Origin: an uncultured Ruminococcus sp.
Lineage (GTDB): Bacteria; Bacillota; Clostridia; Oscillospirales; Acutalibacteraceae
Assembly: GCA_902767285.1 (NCBI GenBank)
Contig: CACXHC010000017.1
Span: 1 to 9,563 of the forward strand
Reading direction: 5' to 3'
Length of the DNA stretch: 9,563 nucleotides
Positions 1,140 to 9,518 of this stretch are shown here, one piece after another (positions within the stretch are counted from its first letter, which is position 1; every line of letters begins with the position of its first letter). The translations under genes were made by a program, and so were the position numbers. The notes beneath the pieces are model-generated. The model saw only the letters and a program-made list of their open reading frames with translations. It was not told the origin of the DNA and ran no database searches.

Positions 1140-1823
1140 TCAGGCGTTACTGCTGTTGAGGTCGTTTCCGATGGGGGTGTCGTCGCCGGACTCTTCGTCG
1201 TCTTCGTCATCATCGCCATCAAAGTAACGCATCATAAGACTGAAAAATACACCAACAAGCACTATAAGCGGAACTATAAAATACCACCTTAACTGCACAA
1301 AACGCACTATCAAGCCTAATTTTGGAATGTGAAAATTAACTGTTCCTATAACTCGGCTCTCATCAATAAGAAAAGTATCTTCAGAACTGTTCGCATCACC
1401 CTTTGTTTTAAAACAGGTGACGCCGGTACCCTCATAATTTTCGATTTTCTCAATAACTCGGTGCGTAAGGTAAGCATCTGAATTTGATGACGGATTGAAT
1501 GTTATTACATCACCTTCGCCAATTTCATCTGCATTAGCCAATCTCACAAATACCATATCTCCGCTTGCAAACTCGGGTACCATTGAATCTGTAAGCACAA
1601 TATAATATCGATAGCCAAACATTGACTTTGTGGGATTTCTGTCTGTCGCAAATAACACAGCCGCCACAACAATGAGAATCGAGAGCAAATAAACAAACAC
1701 CGAGCGGACTATGGAAAATACACGATACCCAGTACTTAAATCTTCTTCATCTTCTGTATTTTTTGTATTTTCGGTTAAATCGGTATCTGTCGTTTTAACT
1801 TCGGCGTTACTCTTTTTCCTCAT
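1140..1823 (-). CDS. sipW: Signal peptidase I, ER/SipW type
   Basis: This 227-residue membrane peptidase should remove signal peptides outside the cytoplasmic membrane. It has an N-terminal cytoplasmic stretch rich in acidic residues, a membrane segment (about 41-60), the catalytic domain, a second membrane segment (about 180-199) and an acidic tail (11 Asp/Glu in residues 202-215). The catalytic serine is in VLTDSMVPEF (Ser80). The position of the bacterial catalytic lysine holds histidine, in YLTHRVIE (His121), and KGDAN supplies Asp143. Ser-His-Asp is typical of the SipW/archaeal/ER branch. An in-frame ATG at 1859 would add 12 residues. I prefer 1823 because AGGAAG (1834-1839) sits 11 bases upstream, and the consensus promoter would start RNA near 1868, leaving almost no leader for the longer form. 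It is the first gene of a two-gene unit with its probable substrate. Confidence 0.93.
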   Translation of the reverse strand: MRKKSNAEVKTTDTDLTENTKNTEDEEDLSTGYRVFSIVRSVFVYLLSILIVVAAVLFATDRNPTKSMFGYRYYIVLTDSMVPEFASGDMVFVRLANADEIGEGDVITFNPSSNSDAYLTHRVIEKIENYEGTGVTCFKTKGDANSSEDTFLIDESRVIGTVNFHIPKLGLIVRFVQLRWYFIVPLIVLVGVFFSLMMRYFDGDDDEDDEESGDDTPIGNDLNSSNA

Positions 1824-1874
1824 TATCAGCATCACTTCCTTAACAGAATACACACACATAGCATCTTATTATTC

Positions 1875-2776: not shown

Positions 2777-3346
2777 TTAAGGAATAATTATTCCGTCTAC
2801 AACACCCGAAATTGCTCCGGCGTTTGCTTCATCGGTATCGATGTGCATAGCGGTTGCGAAATCTGCTCTTACTCTGCAAACGACATCACCGAAAGTTAAT
2901 GCTCTGCCTGTACCGGCATCGATTTTAACGCTGACGATTTGTTTATCTTTGAGTCCGAATTTTTCGGCATCTTCGGGGGTCAGGTGAACATGACGCTGTG
3001 CAGCTATAACGCCTTTTGTTATTTCGAGTTCACCTTTGGGGCCGACAAGTTTACAGCCGGGTGTGCCTTCAATATCTCCGCTCTCTCTTGTGGGAACAGC
3101 AATACCGAGCTTGCGTGCATCTGTGAGAGATACTTCAACTTGATCGGCATTTCTGTACGGCCCGAGAATAGACATAGCGAACTCACCTTTAGGGCCTACT
3201 ACCGTAATTTTTTCGGCACAGGCGAACTGTCCGGGCTGGGAGAGATCCTTCTTTTTTGTAAGTTCTGCATCTTCGCCAAAGAGGGCAACGAATGTTTCTC
3301 TCGTTACATGAATATGACGTGCAGAAGTTTCAACCATTACTTTCAT
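2777..3346 (-). CDS. pduL: Phosphate propanoyltransferase / phosphotransacylase PduL
   Basis: This 189-residue enzyme should interconvert acyl-CoA plus phosphate with acyl phosphate plus CoA, acting with an acetate or propionate kinase. It has the two PduL domain repeats with metal-binding histidines: SARHIHVT (His11, His13) and AAQRHVHLT (His119, His121). It also has AMHIDTDEANA (His168) near the end. ILGPYRNADQVEVS and KLVGPKGELEIT are family blocks. The first conserved motif starts at residue 8, so the N-terminal extension that targets PduL to microcompartments is absent, and no shell or diol-dehydratase genes are nearby. A cytosolic housekeeping role in acetate/ATP formation, replacing Pta, is therefore likely. 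GGTGAT (3352-3357) lies 5 bases before the ATG, and a good promoter lies at 3405-3433. Substrate preference (acetyl or propionyl) cannot be read from the sequence. Confidence 0.95.
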   Translation of the reverse strand: MKVMVETSARHIHVTRETFVALFGEDAELTKKKDLSQPGQFACAEKITVVGPKGEFAMSILGPYRNADQVEVSLTDARKLGIAVPTRESGDIEGTPGCKLVGPKGELEITKGVIAAQRHVHLTPEDAEKFGLKDKQIVSVKIDAGTGRALTFGDVVCRVRADFATAMHIDTDEANAGAISGVVDGIIIP

Positions 3347-4238: not shown

Positions 4239-4820
4239 TTAAGAGAGAGATTTATAATCATCAAAAATGCCATTTAAAGATGACAATATCGTTTTTGAAA
4301 TAACATCGGCAACATACTGCTTGTCAACCGATTCTTTATCCTTTATCCAATCCATGAGCATACCCGAAAGAGCCTCCGTGTAAAATCTGCTGAGAAATGC
4401 TCTATAGCGCTCATTAAGAACCAAATTATGCTTTCTTTCGTTAATGATAATATATTTTTTCATGAGTTCTATAAAATCATCGTAGAAGAAAGATTTTACT
4501 ACATCATGTCCCACCGAATCATACGCACAGAACACAAGGTGGCTGTTTTGTTCGACATAATTCATAACAAAAACAATTGCTTTTCCAAAATCAGATTCTA
4601 TGTCGAAGTTTTTTACAACATCGACTGCATCTTGCTGAACCATCCATTTCAGCAAAGAATAAATATCCTGAAAATGATAATAAAAAGTTTTTCTGTTTAC
4701 GCCACTATCCTTTATTATCTCCGTAACCGTTACTTTTGAAAACGGCTTTTTCTCCATGGCTTTTCGTAAAGAATTTGCAAGTGTCCTCTTTGTATTAAGC
4801 GAAGCGACTGCATGAGTCAT
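4239..4820 (-). CDS. TetR/AcrR-family transcriptional regulator
   Basis: This 193-residue DNA-binding protein has an N-terminal TetR helix-turn-helix. Residues 11-29 form helix 1, and 30-50 (VTVTEIIKDSG, then NRKTFYYHF) form the recognition part with the typical FYYHF ending. The all-helical remainder, with the segment MLMDWIKD (154-161) near the end, resembles the C-terminal domain of DhaS-like TetR proteins, but the ligand is not predictable. The ATG at 4820 has a perfect GGAGGT (4830-4835) 9 bases upstream; an in-frame ATG at 4850 lies in the -10 region and would add 10 residues. It follows the ECF transporter operon on the same strand after a 171-base gap with its own probable promoter, so control of that operon is possible but not shown. 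Confidence 0.9.
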   Translation of the reverse strand: MTHAVASLNTKRTLANSLRKAMEKKPFSKVTVTEIIKDSGVNRKTFYYHFQDIYSLLKWMVQQDAVDVVKNFDIESDFGKAIVFVMNYVEQNSHLVFCAYDSVGHDVVKSFFYDDFIELMKKYIIINERKHNLVLNERYRAFLSRFYTEALSGMLMDWIKDKESVDKQYVADVISKTILSSLNGIFDDYKSLS

Positions 4821-4848
4821 TTTGTATCTACCTCCTACTATACAAATC

Positions 4849-4854
4849 ATTATA
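4849..4854 (-). promoter_or_regulatory. Possible -10 element of the TetR-family gene
   Basis: A perfect TATAAT on the minus strand lies 28 bases before the ATG at 4820. No good -35 box is at 16-18 bases; TTGACC upstream is 24 bases away, too far. A regulator-assisted promoter or one helped by the A-tracts further upstream would fit, but this is weak. Confidence 0.35.
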
Positions 4855-4991: not shown

Positions 4992-5675
4992 TTACAAATT
5001 GTATTTTTTACAAATCCGTTCCAATTTCCGAGTTATTGGTTTTGATAATACCAATAAAAAAATAATATTCGATACGGCATATATTGCTGTTATAGGTATC
5101 GCCGAAACTAATGCGGATATGTATCTCAAAATATTAAACCGACCGTCCCACCACATGGTTGTCCATATATCCATAAATGCGGAATATACCAATCCCGACA
5201 ACGCTCCGTAAATTAAAAGAAAAATTCGGCTTTTTTTTAAAATACCACTCATCAGTCCGGCAACAAAGCCTATACTTCCCCATATAAACATTTGAAACGG
5301 TGTCCACGGCCCCTGCATAAACATGAAATTTGATATTAATGCCGACATAGCTCCACATAAAAAACCTGATTCGCACCCAAGCTCCATTCCGCACAGTACG
5401 ACTATCGCTGTAACCGGCTTGAAAAACGGCAGAGGTGCAAACAAGGCTCTGCCGACTATTGATAACGCTGTCATTACTGCGAGAAGTACGGCTTTTTTTG
5501 AGAAATTCGCCTTCTTTTCAAACGATATTAAAAACGGTATGACCGAACTAACCGCAACAGCAAACGATATTAACAAATATTTTCGGTCTGAAAAGACACA
5601 TATTCCGGCAAAAATTAATGTCGGAATAAATACAAAAATAATCAATATTTCGTATATAATATTTTTTTTCAACAT
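4992..5675 (-). CDS. ECF transporter S component (probably corrinoid-type)
   Basis: This 227-residue integral membrane protein should be the substrate-binding subunit of an energy-coupling factor importer. Hydrophobic segments lie at about 9-28, 33-52, 62-80, 88-118, 126-145, 151-170 and 185-210. The hallmark stretch runs from MTALSIVGRALFAPLP (68-83) through FKPVTAIVVLCGMELG to FMQGPWTPFQMFIWGSIG (119-136). Small residues (G, A, S) in the membrane helices suit contact with EcfT. The GRALFAPLPFFKPVTA and GPWTPFQMF blocks remind me of S components of the cobalamin-related CblT/CbrT type, but that comes from memory and the ligand is unproven. It is last in the operon, 14 bases after the ATPase gene, with only a weak ribosome site. 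A poor 6-base hairpin (4977-5004) followed by ATATTTTT may end the transcript. Confidence 0.85.
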   Translation of the reverse strand: MLKKNIIYEILIIFVFIPTLIFAGICVFSDRKYLLISFAVAVSSVIPFLISFEKKANFSKKAVLLAVMTALSIVGRALFAPLPFFKPVTAIVVLCGMELGCESGFLCGAMSALISNFMFMQGPWTPFQMFIWGSIGFVAGLMSGILKKSRIFLLIYGALSGLVYSAFMDIWTTMWWDGRFNILRYISALVSAIPITAIYAVSNIIFLLVLSKPITRKLERICKKYNL

Positions 5676-5689
5676 TTATCACGGTGCTT

Positions 5690-7285
5690 TCATTTTATAT
5701 TATTTTTTCGGCACATCTCGACAACGTCGCTCATCGTTACCGCATTTTGAAATATACCTCTTGCAATTTGGGCTTCAGGGGTGGTGAAGTATGTAAGCTG
5801 AGAAAAAAATCTTTTTGGCTCGTCTATCGAAACTATATTTTTGTTGAACAAAAATGCACATCTGTCGGAACACTCGGAAGCGGTTCGGGTGTCGTGCGTT
5901 ACGATTATTTGCGTTACTCCGCTCTTTTTGAGATTGCGTATTATTGAGATAACTGATTGCCTTGATTCAAAATCCATAGCTTTTGTTGGCTCGTCAAGCA
6001 GAATAATATCAGGAGATGTGAGAAGAATTTTGGCTAATGCCGTTTTTTGCTGTTCTCCTCCGCTTAAATCATACGGGTGGCGAGACATTAGTTCGGATAT
6101 TCCCAAAAATTCGCATATATCCGATATTCGCTCTTTGTTATCGCAGACCGAAAGCAAATCCTCTTCAACAGTCGATTTAAAAAATATTTCCCGTGGGTCT
6201 TGGGGCAACATCGATATTTTAATTTTTTTACTGCGTTTATAAAATCCGCTGTATATTTTTTCTGTACCCAAAATTATTTTTAAAAGAGTCGATTTGCCCG
6301 AACCGTTGCTTCCAATAATGCTAAAAATTTCACCTTTTTTGACATCAAGTGAAAGATTGGTCAAAATATCGCTTTCATTTTTTGAATACCTAAAATAAAT
6401 ATTCCGAATTTTTAGAATATTTTCGTTGTTTTGTTCAGGCTGCGAACTGATAGGCATAATATTTTTTGTAATCGTATAATTATCCAAAATATATCTGCGG
6501 ATTTCGGCTGATGTAACCAAAATTTCATTTGCGTTTGGTGATATTGCTCTATGAATTCGTGCTGATGTTGGTAAAAATATCTCACTAAAATTTTGGCTTA
6601 TATGTTTTGGATGAGAATTTTCGATTAATTTTCCTTTTTCGAGAAGAATCACCCTATTGGCATAGGAAAAAATATCGTCCGTATAATGTTCGGATATTAT
6701 GACGGTTGTACCGAGTTCCCTATTCAATCTTATTATATGCGATATTAATTTTTTTGCGGATATTGTATCGAGCCGAGATGTAGGCTCATCAAGCAAGAGA
6801 ATTTCGGGTTCGTGAAGCATTACGCTGGCAAGATTTACAATCTGACGTTCACCGCCTGAAAGATATTCCGTTTTTTTATTGTATATTGGTTCAAGTCCGA
6901 AATATACCGAAATTTCGGCTGTTTTTCGGCGGATTTCGTCACTGCTTTTGCCGAGGCTTTCGAGTCCGAACGCAAGCTCTCTCCAAACGGTTTCGGTGAC
7001 AATCGAAGTGTTGCTGTTCTGCATAACGAATCCAACTGCGGTTACTGATTCTTGTTCCGACTGCTCTTCTATTTTTTTGCCTAAAACAAAAATATCGCCT
7101 GTGCGTTCGCCGTAGGGTGCGAGCTGTTTTTTCAAAAGTTTCAGGAGAGTTGTTTTTCCGCTTCCTGAACGTCCGCACAAAAGAACTATTTCGCCTCTTT
7201 TTACACTGAACGAAATTTCGTTCAGTGCTTTTGTTTTTTCATCGGGATATTTAAAACTGAGCTTATCGACACAAATCGAGTCCAA
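5690..7285 (-). CDS. ECF transporter double ATPase (fused EcfA1-EcfA2)
   Basis: This 531-residue cytoplasmic protein carries two complete ABC ATPase domains in one chain and should power the ECF importer without a second ATPase gene. Domain 1 has Walker A GRSGSGKTT (38-46), Q-loop Gln89, signature LSGGE (142-146), Walker B ILLLDEP (162-168) and switch His200. Domain 2 has GSNGSGKST (325-333), Gln362, LSGGEQQ (407-413), IILLDEP (427-433) and His464. All catalytic residues are present in both halves. The linker is about residues 225-288. Translation probably starts at TTG (7283-7285): GAGGTGA sits immediately upstream with optimal spacing, and the first residues (SICVDKLSFKYP) are a normal ABC start. 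The gene overlaps the end of ecfT by 64 bases in another frame. Similar fused ATPases are known in other ECF systems. Confidence 0.95.
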   Translation of the reverse strand: MDSICVDKLSFKYPDEKTKALNEISFSVKRGEIVLLCGRSGSGKTTLLKLLKKQLAPYGERTGDIFVLGKKIEEQSEQESVTAVGFVMQNSNTSIVTETVWRELAFGLESLGKSSDEIRRKTAEISVYFGLEPIYNKKTEYLSGGERQIVNLASVMLHEPEILLLDEPTSRLDTISAKKLISHIIRLNRELGTTVIISEHYTDDIFSYANRVILLEKGKLIENSHPKHISQNFSEIFLPTSARIHRAISPNANEILVTSAEIRRYILDNYTITKNIMPISSQPEQNNENILKIRNIYFRYSKNESDILTNLSLDVKKGEIFSIIGSNGSGKSTLLKIILGTEKIYSGFYKRSKKIKISMLPQDPREIFFKSTVEEDLLSVCDNKERISDICEFLGISELMSRHPYDLSGGEQQKTALAKILLTSPDIILLDEPTKAMDFESRQSVISIIRNLKKSGVTQIIVTHDTRTASECSDRCAFLFNKNIVSIDEPKRFFSQLTYFTTPEAQIARGIFQNAVTMSDVVEMCRKNNIK

Positions 7286-8109
7286 AAAATCACCTCAACA
7301 GCTGCGGGGACAAATGCCAAAATCGCAAACATTATATATGAAAAGCAAGCCGAATTTTCGGTTGGTATTTCGGATATTGACGGGTAAAACGAAAAATTCA
7401 AACAGCCTTTTTTTATCGAAATTATAATGACCGCACATATTATTACATCAAAAATCAGAAAACAAAAATCTTTAGGCGAAAATTTAAAATTAGAATAATT
7501 TGTTCTGTTTTTTAATTCAGCTCCACGAGATTTCATGCTGTCGGCGGTGTCTATCGAATCCTCAAGAAATATCGAAACAAGAACCGAAAACGCCGACAAA
7601 TAAGATATTGGTTCTCCCAAAGCGGTTTGGGAATCAATTATCCGCTTATATTTATCTTTCATTAGCGGTATAAATCTAAGTATCAAAGAAATCAAAACTG
7701 CAATTTTAGGAAAAATCTTTCCTATAAGGTGGATTATCTTGTCGGAGGTCATGCACTCAGACATAGATAAACACCATAATATCGATGTCTGAATAACTAT
7801 GGACATAAAAAATCCAAATATCAGTGCCTCAAGCGTAACGGGCAGACCGCCCAAAAAGAAAAGCTCGGTTACTCCGTGGTGAGAAAAAAGCGGATTTATA
7901 ATTGTTATCATCATCATAAAAACAGCATTTCCGATTATTGATTTTACACTGATTTTTTTTGATACAAGTATTCTGTGGGCAACCGCACCAATAAACGAAA
8001 TTATGACTATTATCGGATTCATGGCAAGCACCGTAAATGATATTACCGACACGAACCACATAAAAAGCGGAAGCGGGTGTATTTTGGAAAACGCACACTC
8101 ATTTTGCAT
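7222..8109 (-). CDS. ecfT: ECF transporter transmembrane component EcfT
   Basis: This 295-residue membrane protein should be the scaffold that links the S component to the ATPases. The start (KIHPLPLFMWFVSVISF) and the following NPIIVIISF are typical of the family. Two coupling-helix regions are visible: LRFIPLMKDKYKRIIDSQTA (144-163) and DTADSMKSRGAE (187-198), the latter matching the conserved Ala-Arg-Gly block. Hydrophobic segments lie at about 12-47, 58-72, 93-115, 133-150, 213-231 and 258-275. The chosen ATG (8107-8109) overlaps the stop of the DUF4430 gene by 11 bases, with GGTGAT about 7 bases upstream, so translation is likely coupled. An in-frame ATG at 8142 would lie deeper in that gene. 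The C-terminus overlaps the ATPase gene by 64 bases. Confidence 0.9.
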   Translation of the reverse strand: MQNECAFSKIHPLPLFMWFVSVISFTVLAMNPIIVIISFIGAVAHRILVSKKISVKSIIGNAVFMMMITIINPLFSHHGVTELFFLGGLPVTLEALIFGFFMSIVIQTSILWCLSMSECMTSDKIIHLIGKIFPKIAVLISLILRFIPLMKDKYKRIIDSQTALGEPISYLSAFSVLVSIFLEDSIDTADSMKSRGAELKNRTNYSNFKFSPKDFCFLIFDVIICAVIIISIKKGCLNFSFYPSISEIPTENSACFSYIMFAILAFVPAAVEVIFWTRFVSISSVLNIPMKKQKH

Positions 8110-8578
8110 AATAATTATCACCAACATCTCTGCCGAGGTCACGGGTGTAGACCCATTTTACAATATCGCCGTCGTGCAGAATATATTCCGAGCTTGAAAT
8201 TGTGGGAAAGTTATCATTGACGCTGTACATCCAGCCTGACAAATCGCCGTAATCATACTCATAAATATTGTCGATTGCCTTGACGTATACAGAGTTGCCC
8301 GAAACTCCGGCATAATCAAAATGAATTTTTTGTTCAGTCAAAATTTCGTTTAAAACGGAAAATGCCGTATCATCATCAGAAATAGGAATTTCGGTTTCGG
8401 GAACAATTATTTTGTTTTCGGCTATTTGGTTGGCATCAACAGAAATTACCACATATCCAACATAATTCTCTGATTTGCCATTGTCGGCAGAATAGTGCTT
8501 GCCAACGGTTTCAAAATTCAACGCAAAAACAACCACTATTAATAATATTATTATAACCCAAATACTCCTTTTTTTCAC
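8099..8578 (-). CDS. Membrane-anchored DUF4430 (transcobalamin C-terminal-like) protein
   Basis: This 159-residue protein has one N-terminal hydrophobic segment (about 6-22) with no lipobox, so it is probably anchored outside the membrane or secreted. Residues 42-153 match DUF4430: VVISVDAN, then AFSVLNEIL (72-80), GDLSGWMYSVND (111-122) and DGDIVKWVYTRDLGRDVG (136-153). DUF4430 is related to the C-terminal beta domain of animal transcobalamin and intrinsic factor, which closes over cobalamin. The start is GTG (8576-8578), with a strong AGGAGG (8585-8590) 6 bases upstream. The gene sits between an alpha/alpha-toroid lipoprotein gene and ecfT, overlapping the latter. This context suggests that it is the second half of a surface ligand-binding pair feeding the importer. 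Ligand identity is inferred. Confidence 0.85.
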   Translation of the reverse strand: MKKRSIWVIIILLIVVVFALNFETVGKHYSADNGKSENYVGYVVISVDANQIAENKIIVPETEIPISDDDTAFSVLNEILTEQKIHFDYAGVSGNSVYVKAIDNIYEYDYGDLSGWMYSVNDNFPTISSSEYILHDGDIVKWVYTRDLGRDVGDNYYAK

Positions 8579-8598
8579 AAAATCCCTCCTCTAATAAT

Positions 8599-8653
8599 CA
8601 AAAGTTTTTTGGAAGGGGTTTGGGGAAACCTTTTTTTCAAAAAAGGTTTCCTC
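8599..8653. repeat. Small palindromic repeat, copy A
   Basis: CAAAAGTTTTTTGG (8599-8612) is followed by a G-rich stretch and a perfect inverted repeat: GGAAACC plus six T (8624-8636), a TC centre, then six A plus GGTTTCC (8639-8651). It extends through G-T and G-C pairs to 8622 and 8653, so the arm includes part of the TGA stop of the lipoprotein gene (8652-8654). No T run follows on the minus strand. As RNA it would form a stable hairpin between the first two genes of the ECF operon and could set their relative expression. Confidence 0.6.
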
Positions 8654-9518
8654 AAGCAAACGCAAAACAAAGCGAATAGAAAGCCTGTGCCGTGGCGTAT
8701 GTATCGGAAGTTCCGCCCGAAGTGTGTGCAAATCCGCCGTTGCTCTGCTGATAGGACAAAAGTCCGTCGATGAGATTTTTCTCACCTTTTGTAAACCTGC
8801 TGTCGGTCATTGGGTTTGCTCCGACTGAACAAACTGCAATTATCGTTTGAGCTGTGGTTTCGCACGAAGCCTCTCCCCAATTCTTGACCGAACATTCGGA
8901 TGTGACTTGTGTTGACAAATAATCTATCATCAAATTTACCGCCTTGCTCACTTTCTCATCTTCCATATACGGAGAAAGTGCGTGAACCGCCATCGCTGTT
9001 ATGTCGGTTTCGGACGTATTTTTGTTTATCATATACAACGCCCCACTATCGATTTGCCGAGAGAGGATTTCCGAAATCAAATCTTCTTTGAGTGTGTTTT
9101 CTATTGGTTGATTTTCAAGCACCATCAACCCAAATATAAGATGATTTATCATTCTTTCGGTTAGGGGCTTTGATTTCAAATCCGATACAATCGAGTCCAA
9201 CATTCCGTTAGCCGAAATATCGGCTCCGTTGGCTTTTGCTGCAATTGCGATTCTCTCTTTGTCAGTAATAATCATATCATCCGAAAATATTTTTTCAGCC
9301 GATACTACATATTCGGAATCGGGATTTCCCGATATGCCCGTTCCGTATGCAAACCAATCGTAAACGCTGTCGCCGGCTGATGCTTCGAGATTTTCGTTTT
9401 TCCAAGATGTCGTTTTTTCGATTGCCTGAGATATGCGTTCGCCATAAGTCGGATTTTTTGTACACCCGCTCACTAATATTATCGCTATTACCAAAATTAA
9501 TGACGTTATTTTCTTCAT
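8652..9518 (-). CDS. Lipoprotein with alpha/alpha-toroid (squalene-cyclase/prenyltransferase-like) repeats
   Basis: This 288-residue protein has a lipoprotein signal peptide with lipobox LVSGC (Cys19), so it should be attached to the outer face of the membrane. The body consists of helical hairpin repeats. Late units carry recognisable pieces: ETDITAMAVHALSPY, NWGEASCETTAQTIIAVCS and QQSNGGFAHTSGG followed by DTYATAQAFYSL. These resemble the QxxxGGF-type repeats of the prenyltransferase/squalene-cyclase toroid. No catalytic DxDD-type motif is seen, which argues against a cyclase. The alpha domain of intrinsic factor and transcobalamin has the same fold, and the next gene supplies a beta-domain-like partner. 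The ATG at 9518 gives a complete lipoprotein signal; AAGG lies about 13 bases upstream, so the ribosome site is weak. It appears to be the first gene of the operon. Confidence 0.82.
   Translation of the reverse strand: MKKITSLILVIAIILVSGCTKNPTYGERISQAIEKTTSWKNENLEASAGDSVYDWFAYGTGISGNPDSEYVVSAEKIFSDDMIITDKERIAIAAKANGADISANGMLDSIVSDLKSKPLTERMINHLIFGLMVLENQPIENTLKEDLISEILSRQIDSGALYMINKNTSETDITAMAVHALSPYMEDEKVSKAVNLMIDYLSTQVTSECSVKNWGEASCETTAQTIIAVCSVGANPMTDSRFTKGEKNLIDGLLSYQQSNGGFAHTSGGTSDTYATAQAFYSLCFAFA

Follow-up and report, generated by a model that had tools for sequence, protein, structure and literature searches.

Transcobalamin, intrinsic factor and haptocorrin, the cobalamin carriers of animals, share an alpha/alpha toroid combined with a transcobalamin-type beta-grasp domain. 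Bacterial proteins that combine such a toroid with an SLBB domain, encoded in operons with the ATP-binding cassette (ABC) ATPase CbiO and with CbiQ and usually found in bacteria without B12 synthesis, were predicted to be B12 scavengers by Burroughs et al. (2007; PMC1796856), where the animal carriers were proposed to have been acquired from low-GC Gram-positives. Here we describe a set of five genes in an uncultured Ruminococcus sp. (GenBank assembly GCA_902767285.1) on contig CACXHC010000017.1, the whole of which (9563 bases, from an assembly of 323 contigs that is 97% complete) is called the window below. Read along the minus strand from 9518 to 4992, the genes encode an alpha/alpha toroid protein, a DUF4430 protein, EcfT, a fused double EcfA ATPase and the S component of an energy-coupling factor (ECF) importer. 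On the strength of sequence comparison and structural models, we consider it probable (about 0.8) that they specify an ECF importer with a CbrT-like S component and two surface proteins, which scavenges cobalamin or a related corrinoid.

Unlike the animal carriers, the window pair is bacterial, predicted to be tethered to the membrane, divided between two chains and encoded together with an importer. It shares with the systems of Burroughs et al. the combination of toroid and SLBB-type domains with CbiO and CbiQ, and the B12-scavenging prediction for such proteins belongs to that paper, whose passages on these systems are silent on a CbrT S component, on a link to riboswitches, on a split in the loop between two membrane helices and on an exchange of membrane anchor (PMC1796856). 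What is added here is these four points, together with the evidence from metF-metH and CbiC and a structural match across both domains; a search of the open-access literature found no description of the loop-cut split or the anchor swap. The original prediction had called an ECF importer with an extracellular two-part binder an unusual architecture; the predicted two-part binder holds up, but in view of the 2007 prediction it has more precedent than had been supposed.

The closest described relative of the importer itself is ECF-CbrT of Lactobacillus delbrueckii, whose S component is homologous to that of the window; CbrT binds, and with the ECF module transports, cobalamin and cobinamide (PMC5997447). 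In L. delbrueckii, a single ECF module is predicted to serve eight S components, CbrT among them, and CbrT is encoded in the gene cluster nrdJ-cbrS-cbrT-pduO (PMC5997447), whereas the window has its own ECF module genes beside the S component and two surface proteins in addition. Capture of B12 at the surface ahead of the importer, as proposed here, is described for BtuG of Bacteroides, which differs in its beta-propeller fold and in its partner BtuB (PMC6977713). BtuFCD likewise unites a surface binding protein with an ABC importer, but with binding-protein and permease families of a different kind (PF01497, PF01032).

All five genes are found where the original prediction had placed them on the minus strand, with the domain types that it had named, as judged by open reading frames and Pfam, and the importer is complete as it had claimed, since each subunit type could be identified by Pfam and motifs. 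The S component (4992-5675) matches PF07155 at 41.4 bits (cut-off 26.7), and as a single sequence its sole match in the PDB at E ≤ 10 is CbrT of L. delbrueckii (6fnp_A, 5.4e-11); a profile of 20 relatives of the S component retrieves CbrT at 5.3e-32 and nothing else at E up to 1. The fused EcfA-EcfA' ATPase (5690-7285) matches PF00005 twice and contains two P-loops, two LSGGE signatures and two Walker B motifs, and hence two complete nucleotide-binding sites. EcfT, of the CbiQ family (7222-8142, the real start of which may lie a few codons inward), passes PF02361 narrowly, at 25.9 bits against a cut-off of 25. The window genes accordingly comprise two EcfA-type ATPase domains, an EcfT and a membrane S component, the parts expected of an ECF transporter. 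The close packing of the five genes was also claimed, and it holds for the set, except that a gap of 73 bases containing a dispersed palindromic repeat separates the toroid and DUF4430 genes. Because the same genes occur together in relatives, the set is not a chance grouping.

Each of the two predicted surface proteins has its counterpart in transcobalamin and intrinsic factor, the DUF4430 protein being related by sequence to one half of these carriers and the toroid resembling the other half in fold. The DUF4430 protein (8099-8578, minus strand; 159 amino acids) has a single hydrophobic segment, an N-terminal anchor, and a transcobalamin C-terminal/SLBB-like domain (8144-8374) that matches PF14478 at E = 4.6e-16. 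As a single sequence it retrieved no transcobalamin chain from the PDB and a profile was required, the DUF4430 family profile matching TCN2 at 4.7e-5. The toroid protein (8652-9518, minus strand; 288 amino acids) carries an N-terminal export segment and a weak match to Prenyltrans (E = 4e-4, under the Pfam cut-off), and its AlphaFold model, with a pLDDT of 94.5, shows about 12 helices behind the signal segment and matches the alpha/alpha toroid fold. With a lipobox-like VSGC at Cys19 (9462-9473, minus strand; pattern match) as its predicted lipid anchor, it is a putative surface lipoprotein and the likely alpha-domain-like half of the binder. Searched against the PDB as a single sequence, the window toroid retrieved no transcobalamin chain, and toroid profiles reached terpene cyclases and nothing else among PDB sequences. 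The model of a natural toroid-DUF4430 fusion, however, aligns with transcobalamin and intrinsic factor (2pmv) across both domains, with 18% identity to intrinsic factor in the structural alignment. The toroid fold and the transcobalamin-like beta domain of the original prediction are both borne out by these data, and its two halves are indeed separate proteins, encoded by two open reading frames. The window therefore has the N-terminal toroid and the SLBB-type beta domain of the carriers but not their single chain, and the pairing of toroid with DUF4430 and the cobalamin sandwich are suggested by analogy with them.

In relatives the two domains are often joined. Of 8000 candidates scored with the fused query, 929 were relatives at E ≤ 0.001, and the 120 fusions listed all match both domain profiles, with two or more hydrophobic segments following the toroid; in many relatives the link between the toroid and DUF4430 domains consists of a pair of hydrophobic helices and the short loop that separates them. 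A single chain is found in 72 of 80 named loci, which are the best 80 of 277 from the fused query, so that the count is biased to fusions and uninformative on the frequency of splitting; one toroid (L162) was located by tblastn only. Viral contigs (searched with the query P0002) and plasmids gave no matches. Among 22 genomes of the window's genus, 11 of 14 pairs are split, and G003, G018 and G021 have a DUF4430-like stretch on the N-terminal side of the toroid as well as a separate DUF4430 protein. Since split toroids end, and the window's DUF4430 protein begins, with one hydrophobic helix, the split pair would most simply be the fused chain cut in the loop between the two membrane helices.

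Gene linkage in relatives points to cobalamin. Among the relatives sampled from other genera of the order, 22 of the 26 matches to the cobalamin riboswitch RF00174 lie upstream, on the same strand, of DUF4430 and/or ECF genes, and the remaining four precede metE (L101), a cbiK-FecCD operon (L097), a cbiD operon (L098) and a BtuF-FecCD operon (L099). In the named set, where the 40 of 80 loci with long flanks (40 genomes) were searched, 20 of 34 matches lie at most 2 kb upstream of the toroid/ECF operon, and cmscan of these 20 loci placed a cobalamin-clan aptamer at the mapped position in every one, 16 of them at or above the gathering score. In G003, G018 and G021, metF, a weakly matching MetH-reactivation gene and metH precede the pair and importer on the same strand (Pfam check of the neighborhood in G021). 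The homologues are thus linked to a CbrT-type S component, to cobalamin riboswitches and to metF-metH, and the survey found no link to the genes of another vitamin; such a link would have spoken against the ligand originally suggested.

Several other features of these loci were seen. Fourteen two-gene units (L061, L068, L070, L074, L075, L080, L081, L083, L085-L089 and L100) consist of a short DUF4430 protein and a short CbrT-like S component with no ECF module of their own nearby, and a cobalamin riboswitch stands in front of 8 of them. At L106, L113, L130, L132, L140 and L154 a secreted protein of 230-495 amino acids is encoded between the riboswitch and the toroid gene; it shows a recurring VYVSIxDxxGxLxLA... 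pattern and is possibly a further surface protein of the operon, the example from L106 having no Pfam family above cut-off. A check for GCCACTG within the riboswitches was rejected as an invalid test of RF00174, the motif being present in a minority and absent from the matches inside loci.

Within the genus, toroid and DUF4430 are present in 14 of the 22 genomes, none of which has CbiC. All 22 encode a B12-binding domain (20 above cut-off) and 20 a domain for MetH reactivation (above cut-off in 14); the window's genome has both. The pair-bearing genomes therefore use B12 but, judged by CbiC alone, make no corrin ring. Six genomes that lack the pair (G002, G005, G008, G014, G016 and G020) hold the only riboswitches of the genus, a BtuF-like protein and CbiC, and these six group together (support 88/94) in a gene tree built from 20 of the 22 genus members. 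The mutual exclusion of the pair on one side and BtuFCD with corrin synthesis on the other is probably a single evolutionary switch. G011 and G012 (89% and 68% complete) have neither system and hold only a different type of DUF4430 protein of 350 amino acids. A complete importer beside the pair was found on the stretch read in 7 of the 14 (G000, the window's own genome, and G003, G006, G017, G018, G019 and G021).

The stand-alone DUF4430 protein of about 350 amino acids occurs as a second such protein at genus loci L044-L050, L065 and L071-L073, and no ECF subunit is encoded on its strand within 6 kb; at L044 it has a hydrophobic C-terminal end and its gene comes after genes for a protein kinase and for a phosphatase of the PP2C type. 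At L091-L096, loci of the six pair-less genomes, a small surface protein is encoded behind the riboswitch together with a lipoprotein of BtuF type, and a FecCD permease and an ATPase follow where the contig continues. The small surface protein of L093, the one scanned with Pfam, matches NEAT weakly (E = 0.005, below cut-off), hinting that a NEAT-like domain may be used for corrinoids at loci of this type.

We picture the toroid, on its lipid anchor, and the DUF4430 protein, on its membrane anchor, as a pair that would sandwich the corrinoid outside the membrane, like the alpha and beta domains of transcobalamin. The clamped corrinoid would pass to the CbrT-like S component, and its transport inward, mainly for methionine synthase (MetH), would be powered by EcfT and the double ATPase; the ligand, the pairing, the handover and the lipidation are all what we infer. 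If this is right, the system is an ECF importer with an additional extracellular capture stage. The toroid-DUF4430 family would be a concrete candidate for that role in Clostridia, and in the window's genus it occurs in genomes without CbiC. The bacterial source proposed for the animal carriers transcobalamin and intrinsic factor would then have relatives in which B12 binding can be studied directly. A more far-reaching proposal, for and against which we find the case evenly balanced, is that these proteins form a bacterial counterpart of intrinsic factor tethered to the membrane. In it, a clamp of toroid and beta-grasp domains outside the cell, formed either from a single chain that crosses the membrane as a hairpin or from two chains separated within that hairpin, would catch corrinoids and dock on a CbrT-type S component. 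An ECF importer would so have its own substrate-binding protein, in a widespread clostridial family that is kin to the animal carriers, and in the window's genome a dispersed repeat would have swapped a membrane helix for a lipid anchor.

A number of observations weigh against the corrinoid-scavenging assignment or its breadth. By structure, the window toroid alone best matches terpene cyclases in VIA-align and no transcobalamin row is among the 50 listed, although this does not rule out a relation, and for the fusion, VIA-align places terpene cyclases (matching the toroid only) above intrinsic factor (rank 32). Against the carriers, the fusion gives Foldseek root mean square deviations of 7-19 Å with TMq of 0.38-0.49, and its linker (310-364) is modelled under pLDDT 50. 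The DUF4430 profile matches intrinsic factor at 0.034, more weakly than an unrelated RSV chain (0.014). No ECF subunit lies within 6 kb on the same strand at 26 of 61 DUF4430 places, counted out of 75 with 14 set aside as further domains, neighboring genes in a fetched locus or other stretches. Among the 14 pair-bearing genus members, a contig end cuts the stretch short in three (G001, G009 and G013), EcfT is the sole ECF gene next to the pair in G004 and G007, and no such gene adjoins it in G010 and G015. As for regulation, 14 of the 34 RF00174 matches in the named set do not precede the operon, 12 being outside the stretch and two facing away, and 4 of the 20 aptamers scanned there fall under the gathering score, two of them best fitting AdoCbl and AdoCbl-II. 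RF00174 was not found in the window's genome, where the 323 contigs were searched and the operon leader is cut off by the contig end 45 bases upstream of the toroid start, nor in the other 13 pair-bearing members of the genus, the larger search having used stricter filters; a lax-setting search of five pair-bearing genus loci also found none, and an Rfam scan of the window gave sub-threshold chance matches only. Because of this absence, cobalamin regulation is not established for the window's genus. Lastly, the exclusion within the genus is one change on the tree, which makes it statistically weak, and does not amount to 22 independent points.

Four other explanations were considered, of which that of a decayed toroid bears on how much of the system still works. 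The window toroid might be a non-functional remnant left by repeat-associated truncation, with the DUF4430 protein and the ECF importer acting alone. Its 288 amino acids compare with 415-486 in the 13 closest unfused homologues (P0030-P0042), all of which have a C-terminal hydrophobic helix that it lacks, and its stop codon (gene end at 8652) is abutted by a 28-base palindrome (8624-8651) with 116 forward and 117 reverse matches in the window's genome at up to 3 mismatches, against 0 for the control. Seventeen exact copies are listed, and the 3' flank agrees with other copies for about 24 further bases. The repeat, GGAAACC...GGTTTCC with a common flank and often close to contig ends of the assembly, resembles a small mobile or REP-like element in its behavior. 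Also in keeping with decay are the short DUF4430/S-component pairs that other members of the order have with no toroid gene adjoining. Its difficulty is that the toroid is confidently modelled, with a last helix of 15 residues compared with 18 in the model of the fused homologue P0045, that its reading frame is intact, and that the lipobox-like site gives it an anchor, the loose pattern that it fits being shared by one of those 13 unfused homologues and by 20 of the 120 fusions. Two more distant homologues of 314 amino acids (P0043 and P0044) likewise end without the C-terminal helix, so that a short form can exist, and we regard decay as decidedly unlikely. An assembly error at the repeat junction is also unlikely; the database cluster of the 288-residue toroid lists four contigs, perhaps non-independent. 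Rather, the window toroid would be held by its lipid anchor, in place of the membrane helix that is missing where its gene ends beside the repeat.

The other three explanations concern what the system handles. That the toroid is a terpene cyclase or prenyltransferase and an accidental neighbor of the transporter is scarcely credible: DxDD, the catalytic hallmark of class II terpene cyclases, and DDxxD are both absent from it, it is fitted with an export segment, and the one-chain arrangement that predominates in the named loci, for all the bias of the fused query, joins the same fold to DUF4430. Import of heme or another tetrapyrrole by the same machine has some precedent. The heme cluster of L. 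sakei reportedly has five genes that include transcobalamin-like surface proteins. Heme-specific ECF importers are described, namely LhaSTA of Staphylococcus lugdunensis and the streptococcal and L. sakei systems that the same paper cites, where heme S components are said to resemble each other little (PMC7299338). A missing match to LhaS or the L. sakei proteins would therefore prove little. Yet CbrT is the one PDB chain that the window S component matches, and relatives of the system lie behind cobalamin riboswitches and metF-metH, which leaves heme with only a slight chance. A corrinoid precursor or lower-ligand vitamer, such as cobinamide or alpha-ribazole, in place of complete cobalamin is a possible though unlikely cargo; CbrT transports cobinamide too (PMC5997447), and salvage is conceivable in the 14 pair-bearing genomes without CbiC, but the toroid/beta arrangement is like that of carriers of complete cobalamin. 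Complete cobalamin or a close corrinoid relative, captured at the surface and imported through the CbrT-like S component, remains our preferred reading.

The rest of the window holds genes of other kinds. A SipW-type signal peptidase I (1140-1859, minus strand; TIGR02228, 83.6 bits) adjoins the gene of a DUF4097 protein (2015-2758), and a PduL-type phosphate propanoyltransferase (2777-3346, minus strand) matches PF06130 at 6e-77; besides PduL, no microcompartment genes were found among the other nine window genes scanned. Downstream of the importer genes on the operon strand lies a TetR/DhaS-like regulator (4239-4850; Pfam-type match), which also adjoins the operon in L035, L036 and L039, and L035 has the TetR, type-4 UDG, PduL and DUF4097 genes in the same order as the window.

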